From Xanthobacteraceae bacterium (GTDB lineage Bacteria; Pseudomonadota; Alphaproteobacteria; Rhizobiales; Xanthobacteraceae): a DNA stretch of 53,972 nucleotides. This document shows positions 1 through 53,334 of the stretch, one piece after another; position 1 is the first letter of the stretch; each line of letters begins with the position of its first letter. The stretch spans positions 1 to 53,972 of the forward strand of contig JASHQI010000101.1 of the NCBI GenBank assembly GCA_030037645.1, written 5' to 3'. The translations under genes were made by a program, and so were the position numbers. The notes beneath the pieces were generated by a model. That model saw only the letters and a list, made by a program, of their open reading frames with translations, did not search any database and was not told where the DNA came from.

Positions 1-209
1 AGGATTGCCGCATCGAATCCAAAGCGACGAATAGGTTGCAGTGTAACTTCGGCAGCCAGTTTTGAATTGAAACAGAGATCAAGGAAGCTGCCGGCTTTCT
101 CCCGTATCGCTCGATATTCCGGAAGATATCTTCCGGCTTGCCGCATCAGCCAGATCGGTGGAACAGCGCCGTGTGCGCCTGCGAGTGCATTGAGGAGAGG
201 TTTTGTCAC
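1..209 (-). CDS. hemE: Uroporphyrinogen decarboxylase, N-terminal part (cut by window edge)
   Basis: The reverse complement reads as the N-terminus of HemE, which converts uroporphyrinogen III to coproporphyrinogen III in heme synthesis. Visible hallmarks are [17 protein letters not shown] (the family's substrate-binding [10 protein letters not shown] signature) and [18 protein letters not shown] place the start at the GTG at 209, which gives V-T-K-P-L-L, close to the usual family start, with a weak GGAT upstream. A TTG at 221 with AAGGA upstream is the alternative. About 69 residues are present; the rest lies off the left edge. It is divergent from the PPDK regulator across the putative origin. 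Confidence 0.9.
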
Positions 210-319
210 AAGATTATCCAATACACTCGGGTCCTTATCTAAACTATCTTAAAAAGACTCTGTTGAAGTGTTTTGATGGTTGATTAGACTCATATATTTC
301 TGTCCACTGCTCATCCACG

Positions 320-328
320 TTTTACACA
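320..328 (+). promoter_or_regulatory. DnaA box candidate
   Basis: TTTTACACA, one mismatch to TTATNCACA. It sits 20 bases right of the A+T-rich block, next to two weaker box-like 9-mers at 300-308 and 311-319. Confidence 0.5.
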
Positions 329-417
329 CAGTCATCTCAAACGTCAGGCTAATGTAAGATCTGCATTGCTTGAGTTTCGGGGCTATAAATGGGCTCTTTG
401 AGCGGTTCGCAATTTTG

Positions 418-426
418 TTGTCCACA
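418..426 (+). promoter_or_regulatory. DnaA box candidate
   Basis: TTGTCCACA, one mismatch to TTATCCACA, in the middle of the putative origin. Confidence 0.55.
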
Positions 427-478
427 TTTCACCACTGAGGGCCATTAAGCTCGCGTCTTTGCCGCACAGCCGCATCGG

Positions 479-487
479 TGTGGATGA
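479..487 (-). promoter_or_regulatory. DnaA box candidate (reverse orientation)
   Basis: TGTGGATGA on the plus strand, one mismatch to TGTGGATAA, the complement of the consensus box. It faces the box at 418-426. Confidence 0.55.
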
Positions 488-574
488 ACTTCGGGGTTTG
501 TCGGCAATTAGACTTGCGTACCAAGTCGGACCGTGGCCTTCTCCACACTTCTCGACAGCTTATCAGACAATTCG

Positions 575-1411
575 ATGGCGTATGCACCAGGCTACTTCCA
601 TCTTCATCTGATCTCCGATGCGACCGGTGAGACCCTGATCACCGTCGCGCGGGCTGCCGCCGCGCAGTACGTGAAGGTTATGCCCGTCGAGCATGTGCAT
701 CCGCTGGTTCGCACCCAAAAGCAGCTCGATCGTGTGCTGGCCGATATCGAGGAGTCACCGGGCATCGTGCTCTACACGCTACTTGAGGAGAATTTGGTTG
801 ACCGACTTGAGGCAAAGTGTCGAGAACTTGGGCTGCCGTGCCTTTCGATTCTCGGGCCGGTCCTGCATCTGTTCCATGCCTATCTGGGTGCCGAATCAAC
901 CCACAAGGTTGGCGCTCAACACACGCTCAATGCCGAATATTTTCGGCGTATTGATGCGCTCAATTACACAATGCTGCACGACGACGGCCAGCAGGCTGAC
1001 GATCTTGAAGAGGCCGATGTTGTGCTGGTCGGCGTGTCGCGGACGTCGAAGACGCCGACTTCGATTTATCTCGCCAACCGCGGTGTCAAGACCGCAAATG
1101 TTCCGCTTGTACCGGGCGTTTCGTTGTCGCCAAAAATCGAGAGACTCTTGCATCCGTTGATCGTCGGCCTTTTCGCTACGCCTGAGCGTATCGTGCAGAT
1201 CCGGCAAAATCGCCTGCTTGGCCTCAAGGCGCACCGCGATGATGACCAATATATCGACCGTCAGGCCGTAGCAGAGGAAATCGCGGCGTCGCGCCGGCTA
1301 TGTACCAAGCACAACTGGCCACTCATCGACGTGACCCGGCGCTCGATCGAAGAGACTGCGGCGGCAGTTCTGGCGCTGCTCGGAGAGCGCCGTCGGCACA
1401 AGGCGTCGTGA
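575..1411 (+). CDS. Pyruvate,phosphate dikinase regulatory protein (DUF299 kinase/pyrophosphorylase)
   Basis: A bifunctional ADP-dependent kinase and phosphate-dependent pyrophosphorylase that switches PPDK or PEP synthase off and on, linking pyruvate and PEP metabolism. The N-terminal [15 protein letters not shown] and the P-loop GVSRTSKT (residues 153-160 from this start) are diagnostic, and the 278-residue length is normal. The frame also opens at a GTG at 533, but family members begin a few residues before YFHLHL, which favours the ATG at 575. The gene faces away from hemE across the putative origin, the same position as the first annotated gene of Caulobacter. It is followed by maf after 3 bases. 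Confidence 0.92.
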
Positions 1412-1414
1412 ACA

Positions 1415-2023
1415 ATGCCACTATGGCTTGCCGCCGCTCCGCTGTTGTTGGCCTCAAGGAGTGCGGTACGACGGACTCTGCTTGAGGCTGCGGGTGTTTC
1501 GATCGAGGTGCGCCCGGCCGATATCGACGAACGCGCGCTCGAAGCCGGCGCGTCGTCACAGGCGGCCGGATCGATTGCGGCGCTGCTAGCGCGTGAAAAA
1601 GCAACCGTTGTGGCTCGGCTCAATCCCGGCCGGCTCACTCTCGGTGCCGACCAGACCTTATCCTTTGGTGTTCAGCGTTTTGCCAAACCTGCCAGTGTGC
1701 CGCTTGCGCGTGCGCAATTGCGTGCCCTTGCCGGCCGTAGTCACGAGCTTCATTCCGCGATTGTATTCGTGCAAGACGACGCGGTACTGTTCGAGCATAT
1801 TGGTGTCGCACGGCTGACAATGCGTGCGTTCTCCAATCAATTTCTCGATTCCTATTTGAAGGCCATTGGCAGCGCAGCGACTGAGAGCGTTGGTGCCTAC
1901 CAGTTGGAGAGTACCGGTATTCAACTGTTCGAGCGGGTGGAGGGTGATTATTTCACGGTACTGGGATTGCCGCTCTTGGAAGTGCTCGACTTCTTGCGAC
2001 GTCGTGGATGTCTCGTGACATGA
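1415..2023 (+). CDS. maf: Maf-family nucleoside triphosphate pyrophosphatase
   Basis: Maf proteins hydrolyse non-canonical or modified nucleoside triphosphates to monophosphates (house-cleaning). The N-terminal [14 protein letters not shown] is the Maf signature (S-x-S-x-x-R), followed by DIDE and the LGADQTL motif with its catalytic Asp. The C-terminal half has SVGAYQLE and the conserved [10 protein letters not shown] end. Length (202 aa) is normal. It lies 3 bases after the PPDK-regulator gene and overlaps coaE as ATGA, implying translational coupling. Whether it is the dTTP/UTP or the 7-methyl-GTP subtype is not settled from sequence alone. Confidence 0.92.
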
Positions 2024-2634
2024 GCGACGAGCAGCCCATTGTTCTGTGTCTGACCGGTTCGCTCGGCATGGGAAAATCGGCGACGGCGACGCTGTTCGCC
2101 GAGGCTGGTGTGCCAGTGCACGATTCTGACGCCGCCGTGCACAAGCTTTACGACGGAGAGGCCGTGGCCGCCATTGAGCAAGCCTTTCCAGGTTCAACCG
2201 TAAACGGCAAGGTCGATCGCGCCAGGCTGGCGGCGCTAGTGCTCAATGACAGTGCGGCGCTGGCTCGGCTCGAAGCGATCGTGCATCCGTTGGTGAGTAT
2301 CGGTAGGGACCGGTTTTTGGCCGATGCAAAGGCCAATGGTGCGCCGATTGTTGTGCTTGACATACCGCTTTTGTTCGAAACCGGCGCGGAGCGCTGTTGC
2401 GACGCCGTTGTCGTGGTCTCGGTCCCGGCCGAGGTTCAGCGCGCGCGTGCATTCGAGCGGCCGGGGATGACCGTTGAAAAGTTCAACGCCATCCTTGCCA
2501 AGCAAATGCCGGATGCGGAAAAGTGTCGGCGCGCCGATTTTATTGTCGATAGCTCGAAAGGGTTTGATCACGCCCGCGCCCAGGTGCGCGACATCCTGGC
2601 CGTTGTCGCCAAAATGCCCCGTACGCGCCGGTGA
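2020..2634 (+). CDS. coaE: Dephospho-CoA kinase
   Basis: Last step of CoA synthesis: ATP-dependent phosphorylation of the 3'-OH of dephospho-CoA. The P-loop GSLGMGKS is at residues 13-20, followed by the substrate-contacting [17 protein letters not shown] and [10 protein letters not shown] segments. I chose the ATG at 2020 because it overlaps the maf stop (ATGA); an in-frame ATG at 2008 is possible. Length 204 aa fits. In many alphaproteobacteria aroE sits between maf and coaE; here nothing does. Confidence 0.93.
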
Positions 2635-2671
2635 TTCGTCCCCCGTGGCCGGCGCATGAATCGGAGATTTG

Positions 2672-3367
2672 ATGCGCGAAATCGTACTCGACACTGAGAC
2701 CACCGGACTCGATCCGCTTCAGGGTGATCGGCTGGTCGAAATAGGCTGCATCGAACTCGTCAATCGCTTTGCGACCGGGAAAACGTTTCACTGTTATTTC
2801 AATCCGGAACGCGATATGCCGGAGTCGGCCCTCAAGGTGCATGGGCTGACCGCTGACTTTCTGAAGGATAAGCCGCTGTTCGCCGATAAGGCTGAAGAGC
2901 TTATTGCTTTTTTAGGCGACGCCGCTCTGGTTGCGCACAATGCCATGTTCGATCTCGGCTTCCTGAACGCCGAACTTGAGCGCGCCAGTCGCTTAGCGGT
3001 GAGTCGGGAGCGTATGATCGACACGCTTCTTCTCGCGCGCCGCAAGCATCCAGGTGCTTCAAACCGGCTCGACGATTTGTGTGTGCGTTACGCGATCGAC
3101 AATTCCCGCCGGACCAAGCATGGCGCCTTGCTCGACGCCGAACTTTTGGCCGAAGTTTACGTCGAATTGATCGGCGCCCGCCAAGCACAGTTTGCTCTCG
3201 CGCAGGCCCCGGTACCACTTGGCGATGGAAGTGCGATTGTGGTCGTGCGCGAGCGTTCAATGGCGCTTGCCCCCAGACTCACTGTCGAAGAACTCGCTGC
3301 GCACCGCCGCTTTGTCGAAACTCTCGGCGAGAGGGCGATCTGGCGCGACTACATCAGTTTGGATTGA
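2672..3367 (+). CDS. dnaQ: DNA polymerase III epsilon subunit (3'-5' proofreading exonuclease)
   Basis: The DEDD-type exonuclease that proofreads for the replicative polymerase. Exo I is [11 protein letters not shown] near the N-terminus, Exo II is [14 protein letters not shown], and Exo III is [14 protein letters not shown] with the general-base His. The start is the ATG at 2672 with GGAG a few bases upstream; a TTG one codon earlier is unlikely. The 231-residue length matches alphaproteobacterial DnaQ, including a C-terminal tail that should contact the alpha subunit. The 3' end overlaps convergent secB by 14 bases. Confidence 0.93.
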
Positions 3368-3845
3368 GCGGCTGCGATCCCGGTGAGGGTTGCGCGGCCG
3401 CCAGGCGCTGACGATAAAGTGCGACAAAATCGATCGGTTCAAGGAGCAGCGGTGGAAAGCCACCGTTGCGTACCGCGCTGGCAATTATTTCCCGCGCGAA
3501 CGGAAATAACAGCCGCGGGCACTCGATCAGGATCACCGGTTGCAGGCTGTCGGCCGGCACATTCTGGATGCGGAACACACCGGCAAACACCAGTTCGAAG
3601 CTGAACAGCAACATGCCTTGCGATTCCGCCTTGCCTTCGATGCGCAGCGCAACCTCAACATCGGTTCCGGTCATGGGCGCGGCATCGACGTTGATTTGAA
3701 TATTGATAGCCGGCTGCTGCGGACTGGGCGCCATCGAGCGTGGGGCGTGCGGGTTCTCGAAGGAGAAGTCCTTCACGTACTGGGCGAGCACCCCGATCTG
3801 GGGCATGGCCAACTGTGGCTGGGGACCGCCATTCGTCGTTGACAT
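3354..3845 (-). CDS. secB: Protein-export chaperone SecB
   Basis: Cytosolic tetrameric chaperone that keeps preproteins unfolded and delivers them to SecA. After a short variable N-terminus come [28 protein letters not shown], the acidic E-V-A-L-R-I-E-G strand region and [13 protein letters not shown], all typical of SecB. The frame is open further upstream, but the ATG at 3845 has GGAG a few bases before it and matches the family start; this gives 163 aa. It is convergent with dnaQ, which it overlaps at the 3' ends. Confidence 0.95.
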
Positions 3846-4135
3846 ATTGATCTCCGGCCCGCGCACGGGCGTCGCGACTTGGCTAACATAGTGGACGCGA
3901 AGGAACAATGGCGGCCCGCCGCCCGCGCCAGGGGTCGTCGATGCTGTCAATTTCGGCGTGATCGTCCAAGGGAGCACGGAGATTTGGGCAAGGGCTCACT
4001 TCGAGTTCCGATTTCGGCGAGAAGAGGGTGAGAGGACGGCGGTTGTTCATGTTGGCGACGTTGCGGCAATCGTTTAGACTTTTGCAACGGCGCGCCGGCG
4101 ATATGACTGGCGGCCCTGGATGGTTCCCAGCGCGT

Positions 4136-4165
4136 ACCTACATAGCATAGAAGGGCTATGTAGGT
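4136..4165. repeat. Perfect 11-bp inverted repeat in the secB / Tim44-like gap
   Basis: ACCTACATAGC (4136-4146) and GCTATGTAGGT (4155-4165) are exact complements around an 8-base spacer. The 387-base gap 3846-4232 is otherwise without a convincing gene and must hold the divergent promoters of secB and the Tim44-like gene. The repeat is A+T-richer than its surroundings and about 70 bases before the ATG at 4233. It could be a dimeric regulator's operator or a leader hairpin; there is no U-run for a terminator. Confidence 0.6.
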
Positions 4166-4232
4166 TCCCGTCGACGATCGTGGCGTCTTACCGCCCCGGA
4201 GTGCATTGCCGACCAGTTGCGGCTGCAAGAGA

Positions 4233-4949
4233 ATGTCAGACGTGTTCGATATCTACACCATCATCTTTCTGGCGCTGGCGGTATTCATTTTCTGGCGGCT
4301 GCGTAGCGTTTTGGGCCAACGCACGGGTCGTGAGCGACCACCCTATGATCCCTATTCGGCGCGCGACGCCGTTCGCAGTCCGGCGACCGACAAGGTCGTG
4401 ACTTTGCCGTCGCGTCCGACCGAAGTTGCGTCGCGGCCGGTCGAGGCGACGCCGCCATCGGCTGATCGCTGGAAAGGCATTGCCGATAACGGTTCGCCCG
4501 TTGCGGCAGGTCTCGACGCGATCGTTGGCGCCGACCCGAGCTTCGACGTCAAACACTTCATCACCGGTGCGCGCACAGCCTACGAGATGATCGTGACAAT
4601 TTTTGCTGAAGGCGATCGCCGTCAATTGCGAACCTTGCTCTCACGTGAAGTTTTCGATGGTTTCGATGCAGCAATCACCGAACGCGAAGGTCGCGGCGAG
4701 ACTGCGGAAACGCGCTTTATTTCAATCGACAACTCAACCATCACTGCCGCCGAGCTACGCGGCCGCACCGCACAAATCACCGTGCGCTTCATGTCCAAGT
4801 TGGTTTCCTCCACGCGCGACCGAAACGGCGTCGTGATCGACGGCCATGCCGACAAGGTCACGGATGTCACAGATGTGTGGACTTTCGCGCGCGATGTCTC
4901 CTCGCGCGATCCGAACTGGAAGGTGGTCGCCACCGAAGCGGGCCAATGA
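4233..4949 (+). CDS. Tim44/TimA-like inner-membrane protein
   Basis: Resembles the alphaproteobacterial Tim44-like (TimA) proteins related to mitochondrial Tim44. There is an N-terminal membrane anchor (IYTIIFLALAVFIFWRLRSVLG), a Pro/Arg-rich linker to about residue 95, then the C-terminal Tim44 fold beginning near FDVKHFITGARTAYEMIV and ending W-K-V-V-A-T. I chose the ATG at 4233 (MSDVFDIYTI) over an upstream TTG because the anchor follows directly. The stop overlaps mltA as ATGA, so the two are probably co-translated. The bacterial role is poorly defined; a part in membrane-protein biogenesis is an inference from homology. Confidence 0.85.
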   Translation: MSDVFDIYTIIFLALAVFIFWRLRSVLGQRTGRERPPYDPYSARDAVRSPATDKVVTLPSRPTEVASRPVEATPPSADRWKGIADNGSPVAAGLDAIVGADPSFDVKHFITGARTAYEMIVTIFAEGDRRQLRTLLSREVFDGFDAAITEREGRGETAETRFISIDNSTITAAELRGRTAQITVRFMSKLVSSTRDRNGVVIDGHADKVTDVTDVWTFARDVSSRDPNWKVVATEAGQ

Positions 4950-6319
4950 CGCCGATGGCGGCTCGCTGCCGGCTTCCCGCTGTGCTCGCGATCTTTGTCG
5001 CTTCTGTCTGGATATCGTGGGCGTGGTGCAGTGCGAAGGCCGAGCCGCTCAAATTTCCGGATACCCAATACGAGCCGGTCGACTGGGCGGACCTCAAGGG
5101 CTGGGCGAGCGACGATCATGCCGCAGCATTTGCAGCTTTTCTGGCGAGCTGCCGCGCGCTCGGCAGCAAACAGCAGCCGAAGGGCGACGTGACAGCCGTC
5201 GCCGGAGCGCTCAAGGACGCCTGTCGTCGTGCGATGGCGGCTATCCCGCTCGATGATGACGGGGCTCGAAGATTCTTCGAAGGCAACTTTCGGCCGATAC
5301 GAATCAACAAGCTCGGCGATACGGCTGGCTTTGTCACCGGCTACTATGAGCCGATCATCGATGGTTCGCGCGTGCCGACAGCGGAATTTACAGCGCCGCT
5401 CTATCGTCGGCCGCCAAATCTCGTCGTTTCAGGCCAACGCAAGCTTGGCGACGTGTTCCCAAGCAAGGGAGTAAAGGTCGGCCGTCGGTTCGGTCGCCGT
5501 TTCATCGTTCCGTATTACACGCGAGGTGAAATCGAGGACGGCGCGCTCGACGGCTGGCATCTGGAAATTTGCTATCTGCGCAGCCAAGTCGACGTATTGT
5601 TTGCGCAGATCCAGGGCTCGGCCCGCATCAGGCTCGAAGACGGCACCATTCTACGTGTCAATTATGATTCGTATAACGGTTGGCCCTATACTTCCATTGG
5701 TCGCGCGCTGGTCGACCGGGGGCTGATGTCCAAGGACCAGGTGTCCATGCAGCACATACGCGAATGGATGGAGACTAATCCGGACGAGGCGAAGGAAGTG
5801 CGGCGGGAGAACAAGTCCTACGTTTTCTTTCGCATCACCGATCTTGCGACAGAGGATGAGGCTGTCGGCGGCGAGGGCGTCCCGCTTGTGGCCGGACGCT
5901 CGATTGCGATCGATCGTGCGTTGCATGACTACGGTACGCCATTCTTTATCGAGGCCAACCTGCCGATCGCAAACCAGAAGGCTGGAACGAAATTCGACCG
6001 GCTGGTGATTGCGCAGGATACCGGCTCGGCCATCGTCGGACCGGCGCGCGCCGACATCTATTTCGGGGCCGGCAATGAAGCTGCACGCATCGCGGGCCGC
6101 ATCAAGAATTCCGGCGAGTTCTTCATGCTCTTGCCGCGCGCGCTCGATCCGGTTTTGGCGGGTCGCGATATGCCGCTGCCGCCGGAGCGCCCGCTGCATT
6201 TCAGTTCGAACCCCGGTGCCATGGGCGATCCGACCGCGGCCGACGCAAGCCCGCCGGATTTGCAGTCAGCCGGTGGGACTTTGCCGACGCCGTCGGCTGC
6301 GCCCGTGCCAAAACCTTAA
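4946..6319 (+). CDS. mltA: Membrane-bound lytic murein transglycosylase A
   Basis: Cleaves the MurNAc-GlcNAc bond of peptidoglycan to give 1,6-anhydro ends, in the periplasm. There is an N-terminal signal sequence (hydrophobic LPAVLAIFVASVWISWAW), but no lipobox Cys in a clear L-x-x-C context. The MltA domain includes GFVTGYYEPIIDGS and IQGSARIRLEDG. The C-terminal 3D domain has AQDTGSAIVGPARADIYFG, where the Asp at about residue 358 is the expected catalytic acid. A Pro/Ala-rich tail follows. The start is the ATG overlapping the preceding stop. smr is 14 bases downstream. Confidence 0.92.
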   Translation: MTPMAARCRLPAVLAIFVASVWISWAWCSAKAEPLKFPDTQYEPVDWADLKGWASDDHAAAFAAFLASCRALGSKQQPKGDVTAVAGALKDACRRAMAAIPLDDDGARRFFEGNFRPIRINKLGDTAGFVTGYYEPIIDGSRVPTAEFTAPLYRRPPNLVVSGQRKLGDVFPSKGVKVGRRFGRRFIVPYYTRGEIEDGALDGWHLEICYLRSQVDVLFAQIQGSARIRLEDGTILRVNYDSYNGWPYTSIGRALVDRGLMSKDQVSMQHIREWMETNPDEAKEVRRENKSYVFFRITDLATEDEAVGGEGVPLVAGRSIAIDRALHDYGTPFFIEANLPIANQKAGTKFDRLVIAQDTGSAIVGPARADIYFGAGNEAARIAGRIKNSGEFFMLLPRALDPVLAGRDMPLPPERPLHFSSNPGAMGDPTAADASPPDLQSAGGTLPTPSAAPVPKP

Positions 6320-6333
6320 CCGCGACAGAGATT

Positions 6334-6885
6334 ATGAGCCGGCGTCAACTGAGCGACGAAGAGCGTGCATTGTGGGGCGGATTTGCGCGCTCGATCGTGC
6401 CATTGCCGCGAACGGCGAGCGCCCATAAGTCATCTGCCAAGCCGCGCATCAGGCCATCCCATTCCAGCGAACCACTGGCGCCGCGTCTGCGGCCCCATCC
6501 CGTCGTGCGGCACGAGCTCGTGCCAACCGACTCATCAAACGGACTTGTGCCGCTGGGCCGGCGCGTCAGACAGCGGGTCGCGCGCGGCCGCGACCCGATC
6601 GACGCGCGCATCGACCTTCATGGTCTGACACAGATAGAGGCACACGCTGCGCTTTTGCGCTTTCTCCATCGGGCCCAGGAGGACGGTGCCAGAATCGTGT
6701 TGATTGTCACCGGAAAGGGATCAGGTTTGGGTGACGCCGTGACCGGTCGTGGCGTGCTCAGGCGACAGGTGCCAATGTGGCTCGCGCTGCCCCAATTTCG
6801 CCGGTTGATTATCGGATTCGAAGACGCTCACGTCAGCCACGGCGGCCAAGGCGCGCTGTATGTGCGCTTGCGGCGTGGAGCGTAA
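6334..6885 (+). CDS. Smr-domain protein
   Basis: The C-terminal half is a small MutS-related (Smr) domain: IDLHGLTQIEAHAALLRFL (the DLHG motif), VTGKGSGLG, GRGVLRRQVPMWL and HGGQGALYVRLRR. Smr domains are nickases or RNases; stand-alone ones like this act in nucleic-acid metabolism or ribosome rescue. The N-terminal 85 residues are basic and probably disordered. In alphaproteobacteria this gene regularly follows mltA, as here. It ends the plus-strand run and is convergent with the Bug-type genes. Confidence 0.88.
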   Translation: MSRRQLSDEERALWGGFARSIVPLPRTASAHKSSAKPRIRPSHSSEPLAPRLRPHPVVRHELVPTDSSNGLVPLGRRVRQRVARGRDPIDARIDLHGLTQIEAHAALLRFLHRAQEDGARIVLIVTGKGSGLGDAVTGRGVLRRQVPMWLALPQFRRLIIGFEDAHVSHGGQGALYVRLRRGA

Positions 6886-6996
6886 TTTCGGCTGTTAACC
6901 TTAAGGATTGGAATTTCCCGCGCACACAGGAAGTGCTCAAACTTGGTTGCGAAGACGATGCCACGAACGCGACATTATCACGGGATACGGTGGATC

Positions 6997-7131
6997 ATGT
7001 CCGAGACGGTCAAGACGCAACCGAACGTCAAATCGACGCAAAAGGTCTCGGTGGACGCCCGCGTGCTTGCGCAAGTCGAGCGGTGGATAGCAATGATTCG
7101 CGAGTTCAACCGGGAACAGATCAAGACCTAA
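6997..7131 (+). CDS. Possible small protein (44 aa), unknown
   Basis: An ATG-started frame of 44 codons (MSETVKTQPNVKSTQKVSVD...) with GGTGGA close upstream. It is charged, with a likely helical C-terminal half (VLAQVERWIAMIREFNREQ). No family is recognised. The stop overlaps the convergent Bug gene's stop as CTAA, a spacing often seen between real convergent genes. It could equally be a chance frame. Confidence 0.3.
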   Translation: MSETVKTQPNVKSTQKVSVDARVLAQVERWIAMIREFNREQIKT

Positions 7132-8105
7132 TCGATTTTTATTCCCGCGGTCTTGATGACGGACGCCCACTTTGCGGTGTCTGCTTTGAGAAACTTGCCA
7201 AGCTGCTGCGGCGAAGAACTGTCAACCGAATACCCGGTATGTGCCAGTTTGTCGACGAGCGTCGGCTCGGCGAGTGCCTTGACGATGCCGGCATTCATTT
7301 TTTGCACGATTTCAGGCGGTGTCTTTGCCGGCGCAAACACCGCCTGCCAAGATTCTACCACGTAGCCGGGAAGACCCGACTCGCTGATAGTCGGCACGTC
7401 CGGTGCTGCCGGCGATCTCTTGGCTCCAGTCGATGCAAGCACACGCACCTGGCCCGATCGCGAATAGGTTAGCAGTTCACCGCTGCCGAAATAGCAGTCG
7501 AGGCGGCCGGGTATCAGGTCGACAAACGCCGGCGCCGCGCCGCGATAAGGCACGTGAGTCATCTGAAGCTTGGCCATCTGCAGGAAATACATTTCAGCGA
7601 GATGCGGTCCGCTGCCGGTACCGGGAGAAGCCATCGTAAGCTTGCCCGGATGGGCCTTCACATAGGCGATGAACTCCTTGACCGTCTTAGCTGGCGAAGA
7701 ATTCGGCACAAACATGAAGAATGGAAACTTTGCGACGAGAGAGACAGGCGCAAGGTCCGTGATCGGATTGTAGTCGAGCGTGCGGTAAAGTGCGCCGTTC
7801 GACGCGAGCGACGACGTGCCGTACAGCACTGTGTAGCCGTCGGGATCGGAGTGTGCGACGAAAGCATTGCCGATGTTGGTGCCGGCGCCGCCTTTGTTGT
7901 CGATGACGACTTGCTGGCCCCAGATCTTCGAAAGCGAGTCGGCAAGGATGCGAGCATTGGTATCCGTCGGGCCACCCGCTGCGATTGGCACGATCATGTG
8001 CACCGCTCGATCGGGCCACGTCGCCGCCCGCGCTGCCCGCGGCGAAAAGGTCGGCGCGAGCGTCGAAGCGGCGGATAATGCGATCAAGTGGCGACGTGTC
8101 AGCAC
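7128..8105 (-). CDS. Bug-family (TctC-like) tripartite tricarboxylate transporter solute-binding protein, copy 1
   Basis: Periplasmic binding protein of the Bug/TctC superfamily, which bind carboxylates. Hallmarks are WPDRAVHMIVPIAAGGPTDTNARI, VIDNKGGAGTNIGN, SDPDGYTVLYG, VPYRGAAPAF and a GLPGY segment. The N-terminus has a twin-arginine-like TRRHLIALSA and a cleavage site after A-R-A. I chose the GTG at 8105 because GAGGTG sits 5 bases upstream and the length (325 aa) then equals copy 2. No TctA or TctB membrane genes are in the window, so it is an orphan receptor with unknown ligand. Confidence 0.9.
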   Translation of the reverse strand: MLTRRHLIALSAASTLAPTFSPRAARAATWPDRAVHMIVPIAAGGPTDTNARILADSLSKIWGQQVVIDNKGGAGTNIGNAFVAHSDPDGYTVLYGTSSLASNGALYRTLDYNPITDLAPVSLVAKFPFFMFVPNSSPAKTVKEFIAYVKAHPGKLTMASPGTGSGPHLAEMYFLQMAKLQMTHVPYRGAAPAFVDLIPGRLDCYFGSGELLTYSRSGQVRVLASTGAKRSPAAPDVPTISESGLPGYVVESWQAVFAPAKTPPEIVQKMNAGIVKALAEPTLVDKLAHTGYSVDSSSPQQLGKFLKADTAKWASVIKTAGIKID

Positions 8106-8324
8106 GGCCACACCTCAGCTCAAGCGCCATACATTAGCGGTTCGCAACCGTCTCTGCCATGCGGCAGGATGCGTCACACTGACCGTTTTCGTCGCAGTTC
8201 GGGTGCGGGCGGCGACAGAGGAGGCTCAGTAAGAGCTCAGTGAAGATGAGAAAACCTGAAGGATTCCAGTATGAAAACCGCCGGTTGCCGTACCTGTCGC
8301 GTTAGCGGACGGCAAACGGAGAAC

Positions 8325-9302
8325 TTAATCGATTTTGATGCCGGCCGCTTTAACGATCGCGCCCAACTTGTCGATGTCCGCTTTCAATATATCGGCAAGT
8401 TGCTCAGGCGAGGAGCCACTGACCGCATAGCCCATGTGTTCGAGCTTGCCCTTGATCTGCGGATTGTCGAGCGCAGTTATGGTGTCGACATTGATTTTTT
8501 TGGCAATCGCCGGCGGCGTCTTTGCGGGTGCGAATAGGCCCTGCCATGTCGACGCCTCATAGCCAGGCACACCGGCTTCAGCCAAGGTCGGCAATTCCGG
8601 CGCGATAGCGGCGCGCCTGACGCCCGTCGTGGCGAGCGCGCGTACCTGCCCGGACCGCCAGTACTGCAGCAACTCGCCGCTACCAAAATAACAATCGATG
8701 CGGCCAGGTATCAGATCGGTGAAAGCCGGCGCCGCGCCGCGATATGGCACATGGGTCATCTCGATCTTGGCCATTTGCATCAGCAACAATTCGGCCAGAT
8801 GGATCACGCTGCCAGTGCCCGGCGATCCGATCGTGAGCTTGCCGGGACGCGACCTGGCGTAGACGATAAACTCTGCAACCGTTTTGGCCGGCGAGGAGTT
8901 CGGCACGAACATGAAAAACGGGTCGCGGGCGATCAACGAAATTGGCGCCAGGTCGGCGATCGGATCGTAGCTGAGCGAGCGGTACATGACGACATTGGCT
9001 GCGAGCGATCCGGTGGCGAACAAAAGCGTGTAGCCATCCGGCGCGGAATGCGCGACGTATTCATTGCCGATATTGTTGCCAGCGCCGCTTTTGTTGTCGA
9101 CGACCACTTGCTGATTCCAGTCCTTCGACAGCCGCTCGGCAAGAATGCGGGCGACCGTATCGTTCGGCCCGCCGGCCGCAATCGGCACGATCAGATGGAC
9201 GGGCCGATCCGGCCATCCAGCCGCATGCGCGGCGTCAACCCAAAAGCGCGACGTGATTGCCGCTGCGGCGCTCAGCGCGATTGCGTGGCGACGTGTAAGC
9301 AT
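8325..9302 (-). CDS. Bug-family (TctC-like) solute-binding protein, copy 2
   Basis: Tandem paralogue of the preceding gene with the same 325-residue length and the same landmarks: WPDRPVHLIVPIAAGGPNDT, VVDNKSGAGNNIGN, PDGYTLLF, PNSSPAKTV, HVPYRGAAPAF, FAPAKTPP and a C-terminal AGIKID identical to copy 1. The signal sequence is MLTRRHAIALSAAAAITSRF with cleavage near A-H-A-A. Copies 1 and 2 are clearly related but diverged in the mature part, so ligands may differ. The 219-base gap between them holds no gene. Confidence 0.9.
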   Translation of the reverse strand: MLTRRHAIALSAAAAITSRFWVDAAHAAGWPDRPVHLIVPIAAGGPNDTVARILAERLSKDWNQQVVVDNKSGAGNNIGNEYVAHSAPDGYTLLFATGSLAANVVMYRSLSYDPIADLAPISLIARDPFFMFVPNSSPAKTVAEFIVYARSRPGKLTIGSPGTGSVIHLAELLLMQMAKIEMTHVPYRGAAPAFTDLIPGRIDCYFGSGELLQYWRSGQVRALATTGVRRAAIAPELPTLAEAGVPGYEASTWQGLFAPAKTPPAIAKKINVDTITALDNPQIKGKLEHMGYAVSGSSPEQLADILKADIDKLGAIVKAAGIKID

Positions 9303-9406
9303 GAGTACCCCCGGGGCGAGTCCGATCCAGATTAGCGGGAACCCCGGCCGCGACCAACCGCCGCGGGGGAGCGCGTTGGACAGGCGGACGGCTCAGTTTG
9401 CATCCG

Positions 9407-10714
9407 CTAAAGAATGAACCGGCTCAAATCCGCGTTTTTGGCGAGATCGCCGACGTGCTTGTGCACATAGTCGGCGTCGATCTTCACCGTCTCCCCGGAG
9501 CGATCCGGCGCGGCGAACGAGATATCATCGAGTACGCGCTCCATCACGGTCTGCAGCCGCCGCGCGCCGATATTTTCCACGCTCGAATTCACCGCCACCG
9601 CCACGTCGGCCAGTGCATCGATGGCGTCTTCGGAAAATTCCAGTGTCACGCCCTCGGTGGCCAAGAGCGCGACATATTGCTTGACCAGCGAGGCTTCGGG
9701 GTCGGTCAGGATGCGGCGCATATCGTCGCGCGTGAGCGGCTGTAGCTCCACCCGGATCGGCAAGCGACCCTGCAATTCCGGCAGCAGATCCGAGGGTTTC
9801 GAAATATGGAATGCGCCCGACGCGATGAACAGGATGTGATCGGTTTTCACCGAGCCGTGCTTGGTGGCGACGTTGGTGCCCTCGATCAGCGGCAACAGGT
9901 CCCGCTGCACGCCTTCGCGCGACACATCGGCGCCGATGCGTCCCTCGCGTGCGCAGATTTTGTCGATCTCGTCGAGGAACACGATGCCGTTGTTCTCGAC
10001 GTTTTTGATTGCCTCCTGCGTGAGCTGGTCGGTGTCGAGCAGCTTGTCGGACTCCTCGTTGATCAGAATTTCGTAGGAATCGTGTACCGTTACGCGCCGC
10101 GTCTTGGTGCGGCCGCCGCCGAGCTTGCCGAAAATGTCGCCAATCGAAATCGCGCCCATTTGCGCGCCAGGCATGCCAGGAATGTCGAACAGCGGCATGC
10201 CGGAGCCTCCGGCCTGTACCTCGATTTCGATCTCTTTGTCGTCTAGCTCGCCGGCCCGCAGTTTTTTGCGGAAAGTCTCTTTGGTCGATGCACTGGCGCT
10301 GGCTCCGACCAGCGCATCGAGCACACGTTCTTCGGCCGCTTTCTGGGCTCTCGCCTGGACGTCTTTGCGCTTGCGCTCGCGGGTCAGAGCGATGGCGACC
10401 TCGACGAGGTCGCGCACGATCTGCTCGACGTCACGGCCGACATAGCCAACCTCGGTAAATTTCGTAGCCTCGACCTTGAGGAATGGCGCAGCGGCGAGCT
10501 TGGCGAGGCGGCGCGAAATTTCCGTCTTGCCGACCCCGGTCGGGCCAATCATCAAGATATTCTTCGGCAGCACCTCTTCGCGCAGCCGCTCGTCGAGTTG
10601 CAGGCGACGCCAGCGGTTTCGCAGCGCGATGGCGACCGCGCGCTTTGCGTCAGTCTGACCGACGATGAAGCGGTCAAGTTCGGAGACGATTTCGCGAGGG
10701 GAGAAGTCGGTCAT
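9407..10714 (-). CDS. hslU: ATP-dependent protease ATPase subunit HslU
   Basis: AAA+ unfoldase of the HslUV (ClpYQ) protease; it feeds proteins to the HslV peptidase. Walker A GPTGVGKT is at residues 57-64, the pore GYVGRDVE motif follows, then an I-domain rich in charged residues, Walker [12 protein letters not shown], sensor region and the C-terminal DLSRFIL tail that docks into HslV. Length 435 aa is normal. Its start overlaps the stop of the GNAT gene as ATGA, so hslV, GNAT gene and hslU form one transcript. Confidence 0.97.
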
Positions 10715-11202
10715 AACTCACATACCATGAGAAGCGTCCGACCCCACGGCGTATCGACCAATCGTTCGGTTCGAAAGCCGGCTTTTTCATAAGCGCCCAC
10801 GGCGCGCCGATTGGCCGGGTCGGGGTCGGTAACGACGCGGGGTGTGCCGGCGGCGAACAGTTTTGCGACAAAGGCGCGCGTCAGGGCGGAGCCATGACCG
10901 CGCCCGATCATATCGGGATTGCCGATGAACTGGTCGATGCCTCGCGTGCCGGCGGGTTGATCGCGGAACGGATGATCGGCCTCGGCACATGGGTCGTAGC
11001 ATTGCAAATAGCCGATCGCCCGGTCGTTCGCCGTCACAATGAAGACATCGATTGCCGGATCGCCGATATGAGCGCGGACGCGCTCGAGCTGTTTGACGCC
11101 GGCCGGCCACCATTCCACGACGTGCGGCATGGTCAGCCAGCCCCCGACGAGCGGCAAGTCGTCTTCGGACATCGGGCGGAAGGCGTAGGCACAGGGCACC
11201 AT
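10711..11202 (-). CDS. GNAT-family acetyltransferase (aminoglycoside 6'-N-acetyltransferase-like)
   Basis: A 163-residue GNAT fold: [31 protein letters not shown], then the acetyl-CoA-binding region around [24 protein letters not shown] (the R/Q-x-x-G-x-G/A loop) and [18 protein letters not shown]. Sequence features match the AacA4/RimJ-like branch, so the real substrate may be a small amine or a protein N-terminus rather than a drug. It is sandwiched between hslV (3-base gap) and hslU (ATGA overlap), a layout I recall from related Hyphomicrobiales. Confidence 0.85.
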
Positions 11203-11205
11203 GGG

Positions 11206-11769
11206 TCAGGCGCCCTTCAACATCTCGATGGTGACGTTGCGATTGGTGTAGACGCAGATGTCTGCCGCGATGTCGAGCGCGCGGCGCACGATTGTCTCGG
11301 CATCGAGCGGGCCGTCGACCAAGGCGCGTGCCGCAGCGAGCGCATAATTGCCGCCGGAGCCGATGCCGACAATGCCGGCTTCCGGCTCAAGCACGTCTCC
11401 GGTGCCGGTGAGCACCAGGGAGACGTCCTTGTCGGCGACGATCATCATCGCTTCGAGCCGGCGCAAATAGCGGTCGGTCCGCCAATCTTTGGCGAGTTCG
11501 ACTGCGGCCCGGGTGAGTTGACCCGGATATTGCTCGAGCTTCGATTCCAACCGCTCGAACAGGGTAAAGGCGTCGGCCGTGGCGCCGGCAAAGCCGCCGA
11601 TCACGTCGCCCTTGCCGAGCCGGCGGACCTTTTTGGCATTGGCCTTGACGATGGTCTGACCGATCGAAACCTGGCCATCGCCACCGACCGCCACCACGCC
11701 GTTTTTACGGACGGTGAGGATCGTGGTGCCGCGCCAGGCTCCGGAATGGCCAGATTCGAAAGATTGCAT
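11206..11769 (-). CDS. hslV: ATP-dependent protease peptidase subunit HslV
   Basis: Threonine peptidase of HslUV. The catalytic core begins at [11 protein letters not shown], where the first Thr becomes the N-terminal nucleophile after removal of a short leader. [48 protein letters not shown] and [14 protein letters not shown] follow. I chose the ATG at 11769; a TTG at 11796 would add nine residues. A heat-shock-type promoter would be expected in the 125-base gap shared with divergent hisB, but I could not identify one with confidence. Confidence 0.95.
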
Positions 11770-11894
11770 GCGGTGGAGGGCCCTTATTCTAAGCAAGATT
11801 TAGGAGTTGAGCGGCGGCAATGCAATTGCACAGGACATTGGCGGAGCGGACAAAGCCCTGATAAAAGGCGCGCGGCGCGCTGTGGAGATTAACG

Positions 11895-12488
11895 ATGCGC
11901 AAGGCGTCCGTGAAGCGAACTACCAAGGAGACCGACGTCGAAGTTGCCGTCGATCTCGACGGCTCCGGCACATCGTCGCTGGCGACGGGTATTGGCTTCC
12001 TCGACCACATGCTCGATCTGTTGGCACGTCATTCGCGCATCGATATCCGCGCCAACGCCAAGGGTGACCTGCATATTGATCAGCACCACACGACCGAGGA
12101 TGTCGGCATTGCGCTAGGGCAGGCACTCAAGCAGGCGCTTGGCGACATGAAAGGCATCGCGCGCTACGCCGACGTCCACGTGCCGATGGATGAGGCGCTT
12201 ACGCGTGTGGCGATCGATATTTCGGGCCGACCATTCCTGGTTTTCAAGGTCGAATTCGTGCGCGCCAAGGTCGGCACTTTTGATACCGCCTTGGTGCAGG
12301 AATGGTTCCAAGCATTTGCCATGAACGCCGGCGTAACGCTGCACGTGGCAACGCTTTACGGCAGCAACGATCATCATATCGCCGAATCCTGCTTCAAAGG
12401 TCTAGCGCGGGCATTGCGAGCCGCCGTCGCCATCGATCCGCGGGCCGCCAATGAGGTGCCTTCGACCAAAGGAGCGCTCGGCGGTTAA
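11895..12488 (+). CDS. hisB: Imidazoleglycerol-phosphate dehydratase
   Basis: Sixth step of histidine synthesis: dehydration of imidazoleglycerol phosphate to imidazoleacetol phosphate. Both Mn-binding repeats are visible: HHTTED at residues 64-69 and DHHIAE at 159-164, plus [13 protein letters not shown] near the N-terminus. It is the monofunctional form of 197 aa, without the HisB phosphatase domain found in enteric bacteria. First gene of the his run hisB-DUF2628-hisHAFE, divergent from hslV. Confidence 0.97.
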
Positions 12489-12624
12489 CTCGATGTCATC
12501 GTCCGCGGAAGCGAACGATCCTGCAGTTCCCGGCGGAGATGCTTAGATTCGTCGGTGCGCGATCACGGATAGCCGCCGGTGCGGGCGTGACAGTAAGGAG
12601 AAGGCAGCCGTAGGCTGAAGACCC

Positions 12625-13134
12625 ATGTCGGTTTACACCATACACGAGCCACCGCTGCGGGCTACCGGCGCACCTCCGGATCCTGAACGCTTTGCGTTTG
12701 TGCGCGATGGCTTCTCTGGATGGGCTTTTGTGCTGGCGCCATTATGGATGCTGCTGCACCGCATGTGGCTCGTATTCGCGGTCTATGTCGTCGGCGCGGC
12801 AGGGCTTGAAACGCTGGTGCGGATGTTTGGTGGCTCGGCGTCGGCCGTCGCTCTGATCGGCCTTCTAATCTCGCTGGCAATCGGCCTTGAGGCCGGCTCG
12901 CTTCGGCGTTTTACGTTGTCGCGGCGGGGCTGGAAGCAAATCGGCGTGGTCAGCGGCCGGGATCGTGAGCAGGCCGAACGGCGGTTCTTCGATGCATGGG
13001 CTAGCCAGGTGGTAACCGGTTCCGGTATGCGGTCTGCCGCCGCGCCAGCGGGGCCGGGCTCGTCCGTGCCGACCTCGAGCATGGCGCACACCGATGTCAT
13101 CGGGCTGTTTCCCGAGCCGGGAGCGCAGCGATGA
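12625..13134 (+). CDS. DUF2628 membrane protein inside the his operon
   Basis: A 169-residue protein with a conserved N-terminal segment around [28 protein letters not shown], then two to three hydrophobic spans to about residue 95, and a soluble C-terminal tail rich in Ser, Ala and Pro. This is the DUF2628 pattern. No catalytic residues can be read. The stop overlaps hisH as ATGA, so it is translationally coupled with histidine synthesis. Related Hyphomicrobiales carry the same arrangement, but no role in histidine synthesis is known to me. Confidence 0.75.
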
Positions 13135-13781
13135 GCGTCGCTATAGTCGATTACGGCTCCGGGAACCTGCACTCCGCGGCAAAGGCATTCGAGCGTGCGG
13201 CGCGCGAGGTCGGTTTCGGCCAGCCGATCGTCGTGACGCGCGATCCGGCCGTTGTGACGCGTGCCGATCGCGTGGTGCTGCCCGGGGTCGGCGCCTTTGC
13301 CGATTGCCGGCGCGGCCTCGATACATTGGACGGTATGATTGGCGCGCTCGACGAGGCGGTGCGCCACAAAGGCCGGCCGTTCCTCGGCATCTGTGTCGGT
13401 TTGCAGTTGCTGGCCGAGCGTGGGTGCGAATACGAAGTGACGGAAGGGTTGAGCTGGATAGCCGGTGAGGTCGACCGTATCGCACCCAGCGATCCAAGCC
13501 TCAAGATTCCGCATATGGGCTGGAACACCCTCGATATCGTACGGCCGCATCCGCTGATCAACAGCTTGAGGCTCGGCCGGGACGGCCTGCATGCTTATTT
13601 CGTGCATTCCTATCAGATCAAGCCCGCCCAACGCGCCGACCTTGTGGCGGAAGCCGATTACGGTGGTCCCATTACGGCGATCGTGGCGCGCGATAATATT
13701 GTCGGCACACAATTTCATCCCGAGAAGAGCCAACGGCTCGGTCTCGCGCTAATTGCGAACTTTCTGCAATGGAAGCCGTGA
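13131..13781 (+). CDS. hisH: Imidazole glycerol phosphate synthase, glutaminase subunit
   Basis: Class I glutamine amidotransferase that supplies ammonia to HisF. The oxyanion region PGVGAF, nucleophile Cys88 in [11 protein letters not shown], and His196/Glu198 in QFHPEKSQ form the expected catalytic triad. HMGWNTL and YFVHSY are also typical of HisH. Length 216 aa. Its start lies in the ATGA overlap with the DUF2628 gene. Confidence 0.97.
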
Positions 13782-13824
13782 TTAAGTTGCCACCCTCACA
13801 CTTCTTAGCGCCGAACTTTGTGCC

Positions 13825-14562
13825 GTGATTTTATTTCCCGCCATTGATCTCAAGCAGGGACTCGCCGTGCGCCTCGAACAGGGCGACATGGCGCGCGCCA
13901 CGGTATTCAACCGCGATCCGACAGCTCAGGCGAAAGTCTTCGAGCAGCAGGGCTTCGAATATCTCCACATCGTGGATCTTGACGGTGCCTTTGCCGGCAA
14001 GCCAGTCAATGCGGCGGCAGTGGACGGTATTCTCGCTGCGGTGAGAATTCCGGTGCAGCTTGGCGGCGGTATTCGCGATCGCGCGACTATCGAAGCGTGG
14101 CTCGGCAAGGGAGTAGCGCGCATCATCATCGGCACTGCGGCGGTGCGTAATCCGGCATTGGTGCAGGAGGCTGCGCGGGCCTATCCGAGCCGCGTCGCAG
14201 TCGGGCTCGATGCCCGCGATGGCCGTGTCGCAGTTCAGGGCTGGGCGGAAACCTCGGAGCTTATCGCGAGCGATATCGCACGGCGTTTCGAGGATGCGGG
14301 CGTCGCCGCCATCATCTATACGGACGTGACGCGCGACGGCATGTTGAGGGGTCTCAATCTCGACGCTGCGGTGGCGCTCGCCGATCAGATTTCAGTTCCA
14401 GTCATTGCTTCGGGCGGTCTCGCCTCGATTGAGGACGTCCGGGCGCTGCTGGCGCCGCGCGCCAAGAAGCTCGAAGGCGCGATTGCCGGTCGGGCGCTTT
14501 ATGATGGCAGGCTTGACGCTCAGGAAGCGCTCAAGCTGATCCGCACGGCGAGGGCGACTTAG
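13825..14562 (+). CDS. hisA: ProFAR isomerase (phosphoribosylformimino-AICAR-P isomerase)
   Basis: TIM-barrel isomerase of the fourth histidine step. Catalytic Asp8 (FPAIDLK) and Asp129 (GLDARDG) are present, with phosphate loops QLGGGIR and ASGGLAS, and YTDVTRDGM after strand 6. The start is GTG at 13825, since the protein reads M-I-L-F-P-A-I-D directly from it. It lies 43 bases after hisH and 2 bases before hisF. Confidence 0.96.
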
Positions 14563-14564
14563 AC

Positions 14565-15341
14565 ATGTTCAAAGCCCGCGTCATTCCCTGCCTGGACGTG
14601 AAAGACGGCCGTGTCGTCAAGGGCGTCAATTTCGTCAACCTGCGCGATGCCGGCGACCCGGTCGAGGCGGCCATCGCTTACGACGAAGCGGGCGCCGATG
14701 AGCTTACGTTTCTCGATATCACTGCGAGCCATGAGAAGCGCGCGATTATGCTCGACGTTGTCCGGCGCACTGCGGAAGCCTGCTTCATGCCGCTCACGGT
14801 TGGCGGCGGCGTGCGCACCATCGAGGATATTCGTGCGCTCCTGACCTCCGGTGCCGACAAAGTATCGATCAACACCGCCGCCGTCGCGCGCCGCGCCTTT
14901 GTAAAGGAGGCGGCGGAAAAATTCGGCGATCAGTGCATTGTGGTCGCCATCGACGCCAAAAAAGTATCACAGCCGGGCGAGGCGCTGCGCTGGGAGATTT
15001 TTACCCATGGCGGCCGTATTCCGACGGGGATTGATGCCGTTGCCTATGCGCGCCAGGTGGTCGCGCTCGGTGCCGGCGAAATCCTGCTAACCTCCATGGA
15101 TCGCGACGGCACCCGGCAGGGCTTTGATATTCCGCTGACCCGCGCCGTCGCCGATGCCGTGTCTGTGCCGGTCATCGCTTCGGGGGGCGTCGGCAATCTC
15201 GACCATCTGGTTGAAGGCGTTCGCGATGGTCACGCCAGTGCTGTGCTCGCCGCATCGATCTTCCACTTCGGCGAGCATTCGGTGCGTGAAGCGAAGCGAT
15301 ACATGGCCCGTGCCGGCCTGCCGGTACGGCTTGATTATTGA
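14565..15341 (+). CDS. hisF: Imidazole glycerol phosphate synthase, cyclase subunit
   Basis: TIM-barrel synthase partner of HisH; makes imidazoleglycerol phosphate and AICAR. Asp11 ([14 protein letters not shown]) and the second catalytic Asp in VVAIDAKK (about residue 130) are in place, with phosphate-binding TVGGGVR and ASGGVGN and the TSMDRDGT loop. Length 258 aa. It follows hisA by 2 bases, so the HisHF complex and HisA come from one message. Confidence 0.97.
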
Positions 15342-15385
15342 TCGCCCTCTCCCCGGCCGGGCGCAGAGGTGATAAGGAACGCGGC

Positions 15386-15709
15386 ATGGCGACCTTCACC
15401 CTCCAAGACCTTGAAAAGCGTGTGCAGGAGCGCGCACGCGCGAGCGCGGAAGTCTCCTACACGCGCAAACTCCTCGACCGCGGCATCACGCATTGCGCCA
15501 AAAAGCTTGGCGAGGAGGCGGTGGAGGCCGCGATCGCCGCAGTCGGCGAGGATCGCAATCGCATGGTCGCGGAAGCAGCGGACGTGCTCTATCACCTTCT
15601 CGTCGTGCTCCATGCTCGCGGCATCGCACTTGAGGAGGTCGAGGCTGAGCTCGGTGCCCGCACGCGCCAATCGGGCCTTGACGAAAAGGCCGCGCGAAGA
15701 GGCGGTTAA
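15386..15709 (+). CDS. hisE: Phosphoribosyl-ATP pyrophosphatase
   Basis: Second step of histidine synthesis: releases pyrophosphate from PR-ATP. The all-alpha MazG-like fold shows [14 protein letters not shown] (metal-binding Glu residues) and [13 protein letters not shown]. The ATG at 15386 has AAGGA 7 bases upstream and gives [10 protein letters not shown], the usual start; the frame itself opens at 15338. 107 aa. It is a separate HisE, not fused to HisI. hisI, hisD, hisG and hisC are not in the window. Confidence 0.95.
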
Positions 15710-15721
15710 GGGCATCTCAGA

Positions 15722-16675: not shown

Positions 16676-16679
16676 CTTG

Positions 16680-18890: not shown

Positions 18891-19126
18891 AGTTTTAATC
18901 CCGCTCGGCACGTTCTTCGCGGAAGCCGTTGAAAATCACGCTCGTGCCTGGATTAGCGATGTGCAAGCGAGCATAGTCGCCTATCAACATTGCGCATCCC
19001 TTGCATTCGGCAAGGCGCGTCAAGTGCGATTGGAGTGAAGGTTGATGCTTTGTTAACATTGCCTTGGCTTTAGCGATGGGGCGCCCATCTAACCCTCATA
19101 CATTTACCTTCGCCGGAGATTATGTG

Positions 19127-19786: not shown

Positions 19787-19789
19787 AGT

Positions 19790-47156: not shown

Positions 47157-47413
47157 CCGACCCGGCACTCTGTATCGCTGCGCGGCCGTGAAATGACGTA
47201 ACGAGTCAACATTGAGACATCGTGTCCCATGCGTACGCGTCGACAGCTGGTACAGTCATTGTCCAGAGCTGCCAGCGGGATGTGCCGATTTCCCGCGAAT
47301 TTCAAAGGCAGCGATTGTGCCTCTGGCGGGCAAATCATCCGAGAAATAAATCGACAATGGTTCGTTGCCTTCTGTGTTTGCAGAAGGTTACGCAAGCCTC
47401 TTGGAGGACCGCG

Positions 47414-48427: not shown

Positions 48428-48522
48428 CGCTCCGGGAGGCGCTAACGATCAGGTGCGGCTAGCAATCCGCTTGCGCCGTATTACCATTTGCGTTCACAAT
48501 CCTTTTGTGAAGGACCGGCGCG

Positions 48523-48577: not shown

Positions 48578-48620
48578 GACCCGACGCCCGGGTGGCACAA
48601 ATTCGATTGTGGAGGACTAG

Positions 48621-49616: not shown

Positions 49617-49632
49617 CAGTTTGCCGCGGCGC

Positions 49633-49651: not shown

Positions 49652-49683
49652 ACATCGTCTTGCGAAAAATCTGGGAGGAAGCA

Positions 49684-53305: not shown

Positions 53306-53334
53306 GCGAAAATTAGATCGCAAATGGTTGTCGC

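Follow-up and report, generated by a model that had tools for sequence, protein, structure and literature searches.

A predicted hemE-ppsR-type chromosomal origin in a Xanthobacteraceae bacterium carries a conserved GANTC-containing element and lacks the CtrA-consensus palindromes of related genera

The DNA analyzed here, hereafter the window, is a 53,972-bp contig (C176) of a 4.57-Mb draft genome of a Xanthobacteraceae bacterium comprising 336 contigs. At its left edge lies hemE (uroporphyrinogen decarboxylase; positions 3 to 221, minus strand; URO-D, 2.4e-24), of which only the N-terminal ~73 codons are present because the contig begins there, and whose start is probably the TTG at 221. The right flank is ppsR (575 to 1411, plus strand), encoding the PPDK/PEP synthase regulator of COG1806 (Kinase-PPPase, 3.8e-88 for the frame from 533; NF003742), with the ATG at 575 and an in-frame GTG at 533 as candidate starts. 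Downstream are maf, coaE, and dnaQ, in that order (1415 to 3367, plus strand), and secB (3354 to 3977, minus strand). The order maf, coaE, dnaQ is the usual one beside alphaproteobacterial origins. An earlier note, made from the sequence alone, had proposed a likely chromosomal origin at 210 to 574, bracketed by hemE and the PPDK regulator gene and followed by maf, coaE, dnaQ, and secB in ancestral order. Matches to Pfam and NCBIfam models agree with the naming of the bracketing pair and of the genes that follow, and the locus stands as proposed, with the exact gap corrected to 222 to 574 (353 bp). A search of window positions 1 to 20,000 for structured RNAs gave zero Rfam matches.

A second contig of the same genome, C142, adjoins this locus. 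It carries a complete hemE (matching TIGR01464) with hemJ as its neighbor, and its last 755 bp (13951 to 14705) correspond to positions 1 to 755 of the window as a slightly different second haplotype, which retains all three single-mismatch DnaA-like boxes and both GANTC sites described below, with GAATC replacing GACTC at 256. Given two origin haplotypes in one genome, the draft assembly probably mixes two strains, and this mixture may explain why both contigs end at the origin. C142 further encodes parB, parA, gidB, gidA, mnmE, and rho (named by eye from their translations), and it contains two exact copies of TGTTTCACGTGAAACA, which we take to be the parS palindrome, at 2372 and 4426, or 11.8 and 9.7 kb from the gap. 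The motif TGTTTCACG, which is half of this palindrome, occurs at those two positions (G000:C142) and at 169308 in the relative BTAi1 (G010:C1). Genes for DnaA, a CcrM-like protein, and GcrA are all encoded in the genome; the CcrM model scores 606 bits, below the Caulobacter-specific cut-off of 830. In one related locus (L107), a gene at 11303 to 12517 (minus strand) for a protein with a TIR-like N-terminus, as judged by eye, lies between rho and hemJ in an otherwise typical origin cluster.

A nearest-neighbor stability scan of the 53,972-bp window reached its 60-mer minimum at positions 240 to 299, with no lower 60-mer elsewhere; at the 100-bp scale, one cluster of windows is lower, and it starts at 195 and overlaps 240 to 299. 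This putative DNA unwinding element coincides with the block of 28% GC (241 to 300) singled out in the earlier note, whose three DnaA-like 9-mers one base from consensus are likewise present, as predicted boxes at 418 to 426 (TTGTCCACA, plus strand), 479 to 487 (TCATCCACA, minus strand), and 539 to 547 (TTCTCCACA, plus strand). The consensus TTATCCACA with at most one mismatch occurs seven times in the whole window, three times inside the gap, where ~0.03 such boxes would be expected by chance per 353 bp (shuffle mean 4.2 per window; Poisson P of three or more, ~3.5e-6). Sites with two mismatches begin at 235, 311, 320, 322, and 549. Degenerate DnaA-like sites (TGTCCACT, TCATCCACG, and TTTTACACA; 303 to 330, plus strand) adjoin the unwinding element, and a weak site (TTCTCGACA; 549 to 557, plus strand) follows the last predicted box.

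Relatives were collected through PpsR from the Xanthobacteraceae and other Hyphomicrobiales, mostly as metagenome-assembled genomes, and the best 80 of 119 were used. In 62 of these 80, hemE lies upstream of ppsR across a gap of 341 to 424 bp, and these gaps together with that of the window form the set of 63 gaps referred to below. In 16 of the remaining 18, hemJ is found in the upstream locus (L030, L046, L055, L058, L061, L062, L064-L068, L070, L071, L073, L076, and L077) and adjoins the origin instead of hemE, whereas two contigs (L016 and L025) end too early to judge. In BTAi1, for example, hemE is located at 2.27 Mb, away from ppsR, and the origin module remains with ppsR. The boxes and the unwinding element are present at ppsR with either hemE or hemJ as the neighbor.

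The 63 gaps are enriched in DnaA-like and GANTC sites. They contain 67 DnaA 9-mers with at most one mismatch, compared with 2.6 expected from the flanks (26-fold; shuffles, 5.1 ± 2.4), 176 TCCACA cores (6.8 from flanks; shuffles, 14.2 ± 3.9), 66 TCCCCA motifs (4.4; 17.9 ± 4.1), and 225 GANTC sites (52.5; 95.6 ± 9.7). Relative to 235 further gaps in these loci, whose GC content is higher (0.61 versus 0.53), the enrichments are 17-fold, 26-fold, 11-fold, and 3.8-fold, respectively. With the gap shuffles as reference (5.1 boxes per 63 gaps), the single gap of the window would be expected to hold ~0.08 boxes, and the probability of three or more is ~9e-5. Individual boxes also recur in the alignment: the TCCACA core of the box at 418 (column 421) is shared by 37 of the 63 gaps, the core of the box at 479 appears at the same column in 43, and the TCCACA core of the weak site at 549 (column 552) in 32, while the column of the box at 539 carries the W-box-like TCCCCA in 20. 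The suggestion in the earlier note that such an origin relies on weaker sites, as in Caulobacter, is consistent with the rarity of perfect TTATCCACA matches, which are absent from the gap of the window and found in two of the 63 gaps; the likeness ends before CtrA, as described below. The W-box motif TCCCCA does not occur in the gap of the window, yet is present in 45 of the 63 as a candidate site for DnaA binding. The IHF consensus WATCAANNNNTTR is missing from the gap of the window and found in one of 63, although a diverged site is possible. Runs of at least two TA(A/G) triplets beside a DnaA box, as in the DnaA-trio basal unwinding system, number zero in the window, and 28 of the 63 gaps have one, a count made without a control set.

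A further conserved block, CTTGCG-N14-GTGGCCTTCTCC (513 to 544, plus strand), overlaps the DnaA/W-box-like site at 539. Among the relatives it is written as CTTGCG-N14-RTGGCCTYCTCC, lies between the last boxes and ppsR, and is changed in one Pseudolabrys-like subgroup (L042-L049, L052, and L059). The block may be a start or leader of ppsR, and its RTG may serve as an upstream start codon. The variable Y within it would alter the third codon (Phe/Ser), which is not like plain coding constraint.

GC skew was computed for the two adjoining contigs and for samples from seven relatives. It is -0.020 on C142 and +0.017 on the window, a change of sign between the contigs that meet at this gap. The positive skew of the window fades after ~25 kb and is negative after ~46 kb; this return (46,000 to 53,972) may stem from how genes are oriented locally, from a rearrangement, or from a misjoin. 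The earlier note had named the skew minimum as a check on its proposal, and among the seven relatives the outcome is clearly favorable in four, weak or broad in two, and unclear in one. In G003, skew goes from -0.046 to +0.031 across the locus, and G001 shows the change of sign weakly. The sign also changes within 3 kb of the site in G006 and, in the complete genome G055, between 1.90-1.92 and 1.92-1.94 Mb, with the conserved element described below at 1,923,755. In G039, with the element at 0.784 Mb, the change falls between 0.825 and 1.0 Mb, 40 to 216 kb from the site. Twenty samples of BTAi1 are positive in 9 of 11 cases from 0.41 to 4.13 Mb and negative in 8 of 8 from 4.54 to 7.43 Mb and at 1 to 20 kb, and the stretch across ppsR (0.15 to 0.17 Mb) has a skew of -0.002. 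In 2-kb steps, BTAi1 (168 kb) and G006 (368 kb) each show a local minimum that falls between the gap and parS, and G008 shows no clear minimum at the site. The skew supports the region but does not separate the gap from a parS a few kilobases away.

Origins of the hemE-COG1806 type have been defined by those flanking genes together with DnaA, CtrA, and IHF sites (PMC1914354). The gap of the window has the corresponding size (353 bp versus about 350 to 450 bp), a box cluster, an AT-rich element, and, at the level of the region, a skew switch. The computed evidence comprises gene context and position, the composition of the unstable AT-rich block, the clustering and enrichment of boxes, parS sites 10 to 12 kb away, a skew sign change here and near the site in four of seven relatives, deep conservation, and an element present once per genome in nearly all matched genomes. 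By comparison, positions 222 to 574 are very probably the chromosomal origin, oriC, of hemE-ppsR type, in support of what the earlier note had proposed. As in known members of this family, DnaA would assemble on a handful of sub-consensus boxes (303 to 330, 418, 479, and 539 to 557) and melt the AT-rich block at 240 to 299. Helicase would be loaded there, and two forks would leave, one through ppsR and the other through hemE toward parS.

The arrangement is like that of Caulobacter crescentus Cori, which has the same flanks, an AT-rich block, DnaA sites of which a few are moderate and several weak, and parS some kilobases away (PMC1914354, PMC4468827, and PMC4285127); the Caulobacter DnaA sites are described as moderate G-boxes and weak W-boxes (PMC4468827 and PMC4285127). 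Unlike Cori with its five CtrA sites, the gap of the window is without a CtrA palindrome, an IHF consensus, or a TCCCCA W-box, and it has a strongly conserved GATTnGACTCA element. In lacking a CtrA palindrome it resembles, by description, the chromosomal origin of Sinorhizobium meliloti, also of the Hyphomicrobiales, which is reported to have no CtrA motifs and not to be bound by CtrA (PMC4433202); Brucella abortus CtrA is likewise cited as not binding the origin (PMC2877005). For Azorhizobium, the origin has been assigned to the typical gene cluster and compared with those of Bradyrhizobium, Rhodopseudomonas, and Xanthobacter (PMC2443382). Most Bradyrhizobium loci fetched share the element and its position upstream of ppsR with the window, but there hemE has moved away and hemJ is the left neighbor, with the exception of L060, which retains hemE.

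The best-conserved part of the gap in the alignments is not any DnaA box but positions 279 to 293 (GTTGATTAGACTCAT, plus strand), inside the unwinding region. This element was absent from the earlier note. It includes a GACTC at 287 to 291, where a GANTC site is present in 54 of the 63 gaps and reads GACTC in all 54. A second GANTC (CcrM-type) site, at 256 to 260, is aligned with GANTC in 39 of the 63 gaps, and its middle base varies among them (17 A, 12 T, 5 C, and 5 G). A sequence-only model of the surrounding ~90 bp (R1; 91 positions) drew on 52 of the 79 stretches prepared; because the more divergent ones were omitted, the invariance of columns in its alignment is overstated, and 54 of 63 is the fair count. 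The model matches 104 of 198 family genomes, leaving 94 of 198 without a match, and the match is single in 101 of the 104. The genome of the window has two matches, one on each haplotype contig. Of the 78 matches that could be placed, 77 precede the PpsR domain by 261 to 338 bp on its own strand, and one is a weak second match elsewhere; among all 107 matches, 27 fall outside the ppsR placements listed and two have ppsR on another contig, one of these being the second haplotype of the window's genome.

Where hemE is present, the element lies 50 to 68 bp from its start (mean 65, SD 2.4, n = 54), and its mean distance to ppsR is 303 bp (SD 10.6), a spread similar to that on the hemE side in proportion to length. 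In the hemJ-ppsR loci, GANTC is found 290 to 313 bp from ppsR in 15 of 16, and the distance to the hemJ start varies from 79 to 247 bp, with hemJ starts extrapolated from tblastn and several of the 16 loci closely related. The GATTnGACTC element itself was not found in two of them (L066 and L055). That GANTC stays near -300 from ppsR when hemJ is the neighbor argues that the element is not simply the promoter of hemE, and so the module is better assigned to the origin than to the promoter of the left gene; the tight spacing to hemE makes a double role possible. The invariant middle base at 287 suggests a site bound by a protein, one that is also, or exploits, a methylation site. Most likely, the element serves the origin in protein binding or in melting, and its GACTC would also be methylated by CcrM. 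In the literature consulted, mostly partial texts, we recognized no description of this element or of CtrA sites at these origins.

The CtrA consensus TTAA-N7-TTAA is absent from the gap of the window, whose best sites, at 238, 239, and 273, have two mismatches. The last of these, TTGATGGTTGATTAG (273 to 287), is at the place that matches that of a palindrome in related genera. The genome of the window has 22 exact sites per 4.57 Mb, none on C176 or C142; the palindrome occurs in 3 of the 63 gaps, and of the 81 named loci, counting the window, 78 are without it. We surveyed 20 family genomes without a match to the R1 model, chosen for genus spread among those with a listed ppsR place, and found the palindrome within 480 bp upstream of the PpsR domain in six. 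A second round added 20 genomes, for which the five positive genera supplied 15 (two further g41 genomes were left out), and because these were chosen after the first result was seen, the total of 21 of 40 is not a rate. In the five genera (g2, g6, g13, g18, and g41), the palindrome is in the gap in 20 of 20 genomes examined. In 17 of the 20 it takes the form TTAA(CG/CC/GC)GTTGATTAA and stands where the element would be, and 13 of these 17 carry a second palindrome 104 to 105 bp further on. Among the other 20 genomes, only L229 has a palindrome, at a different place, and shuffles of the 40 gaps yield a mean of 0.0. These genera resemble the window in having the gap upstream of ppsR, GANTC, and DnaA-like boxes, and 17 of the 20 genomes share a GTTGATT core at the matching position. 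Unlike the window, 17 of the 20 carry TTAA-N7-TTAA where the window has its element. Homology of palindrome and element would rest on this position and the shared GTTGATT.

A quick PpsR tree places the 20 palindrome genomes on one side of a branch (one change, support 91), with many open forks. The tree includes 43 of the 81 named loci, GACTC was called loosely (at most two mismatches; among unnamed rows this was allowed for L257 only), and both the off-place palindrome of L229 and the g9 rows were manually scored as none. A restriction of CtrA sites at the origin to one clade holds in the family sample and fails across the order, where 16 of 30 loci, these 16 representing eight families, carry a palindrome in the 430 bp that precede ppsR (expected, 0.6), for the most part elsewhere in the gap. 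These 30 loci (L269-L298) are a nonrandom set, the best-scoring among 105 of 120 genomes with ppsR, and the left neighbor of L270 is unidentified. With palindromes elsewhere in the order, either gain or loss of the CtrA site could account for this distribution. The specific palindrome TTAACSGTTGATTAA has five matches in 297 genomes of the order, one in a hemE-ppsR gap and four without ppsR in the 3 kb read. By analogy with the Caulobacter consensus (PMC1914354 and PMC4285127), CtrA would bind the palindromes of the related genera.

Other accounts of this locus have to be weighed against an origin in the gap. The true origin might lie at parS and gidA, with the hemE-ppsR gap merely nearby, as in a published Ori-Finder prediction that uses TGTTTCACG as the DnaA box of Bradyrhizobiaceae and places the origin at gidA (PMC2275245), which the annotation of Oligotropha OM5 followed (PMC3091675). 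The skew minima of BTAi1 and G006, which fall between parS and the gap, also fit this proposal. The motif, however, is half of the presumed parS palindrome and therefore probably marks parS; in the stretches read, the nearest DnaA-like 9-mer with at most one mismatch is ~4 kb from a parS in BTAi1, 6.6 kb in G008, and 0.65 kb in G006, whereas directly upstream of ppsR there are two such 9-mers in G006, one in BTAi1, and none in G008. Moreover, boxes and unwinding element accompany ppsR with hemE or hemJ alike. In Bradyrhizobium japonicum, we take the genes bll0636 and blr0637 to be hemJ and ppsR. It is in the gap between these two genes, described as conserved hypothetical (391 bp aligned), that the authors of PMC3927601 set the origin. 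An origin at parS and gidA is thus highly improbable. We find it scarcely credible that the gap is a divergent promoter region only, in which the GACTC element is a hemE promoter regulated by GcrA and CcrM and the boxes are bound by DnaA as a transcription factor. The tighter spacing of the element to hemE than to ppsR would suit a promoter, and GcrA does sense GANTC methylation at promoters (PMC11514494), but GANTC keeps its distance from ppsR rather than from hemJ in 15 of the 16 hemJ loci, and a scan found a single sigma-70-like site, away from the element, versus 0.7 in shuffles. A promoter would also leave the skew switch, parS, and the presence of one element per genome unexplained.

Within the favored reading of the gap as oriC, and compatible with it, the GANTC sites in the unwinding element could act like the Dam sites of Escherichia coli oriC, with full methylation licensing melting and hemimethylation, once the fork has passed, blocking re-initiation until CcrM acts. 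The excess of GANTC in the 63 gaps, both over shuffles and over nearby, GC-richer gaps, and the CcrM homologue encoded in the genome are consistent with such a switch, as is the site at 256, where GANTC is kept while its middle base varies, a mark of selection for a methylase site. Furthermore, excess CcrM is reported to cause over-initiation at ori2 of Agrobacterium tumefaciens, but the DnaA-dependent ori1 was not significantly affected (PMC11514494). At 287, the middle base is C in 54 of 54, so conservation there exceeds what CcrM recognizes. Deletion of ccrM in Caulobacter, whose origin also has several GANTC sites, left initiation control normal, and GANTC is enriched in alphaproteobacterial intergenic regions generally (PMC3973325); across the order, origins show a mild excess (82 versus 53.6 ± 6.6). 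We regard a methylation switch of this kind as rather unlikely.

The origin is of a known type; the lineage-specific element and the contrast in CtrA sites go further. CtrA sites have been predicted in the origins of Wolbachia and other Rickettsiales (PMC1914354), whereas a 2015 review states that they are not seen in origins outside Caulobacter, with Rickettsia as a possible exception (PMC4468827). The CtrA-consensus palindromes found upstream of ppsR in 16 of 30 loci order-wide and in 20 of 20 genomes of five genera go beyond that account. Within the Hyphomicrobiales, the palindrome TTAA-CGGTTGA-TTAA of the five genera might correspond to GGTTGATTnGACTCA, with its near-invariant CcrM site, in the Pseudolabrys-Rhodoplanes-Bradyrhizobium lineage; that initiation control there passed from direct repression by CtrA to a factor reading the element, perhaps via methylation, is a speculative scenario to which we give a low probability. 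For genome annotation, a published origin-finder motif that is apparently a parS half-site can mislead, pointing some kilobases away from the origin. For the biology of this lineage, which is without CtrA palindromes but has a conserved element in their stead, what controls the initiation of replication becomes a testable question.
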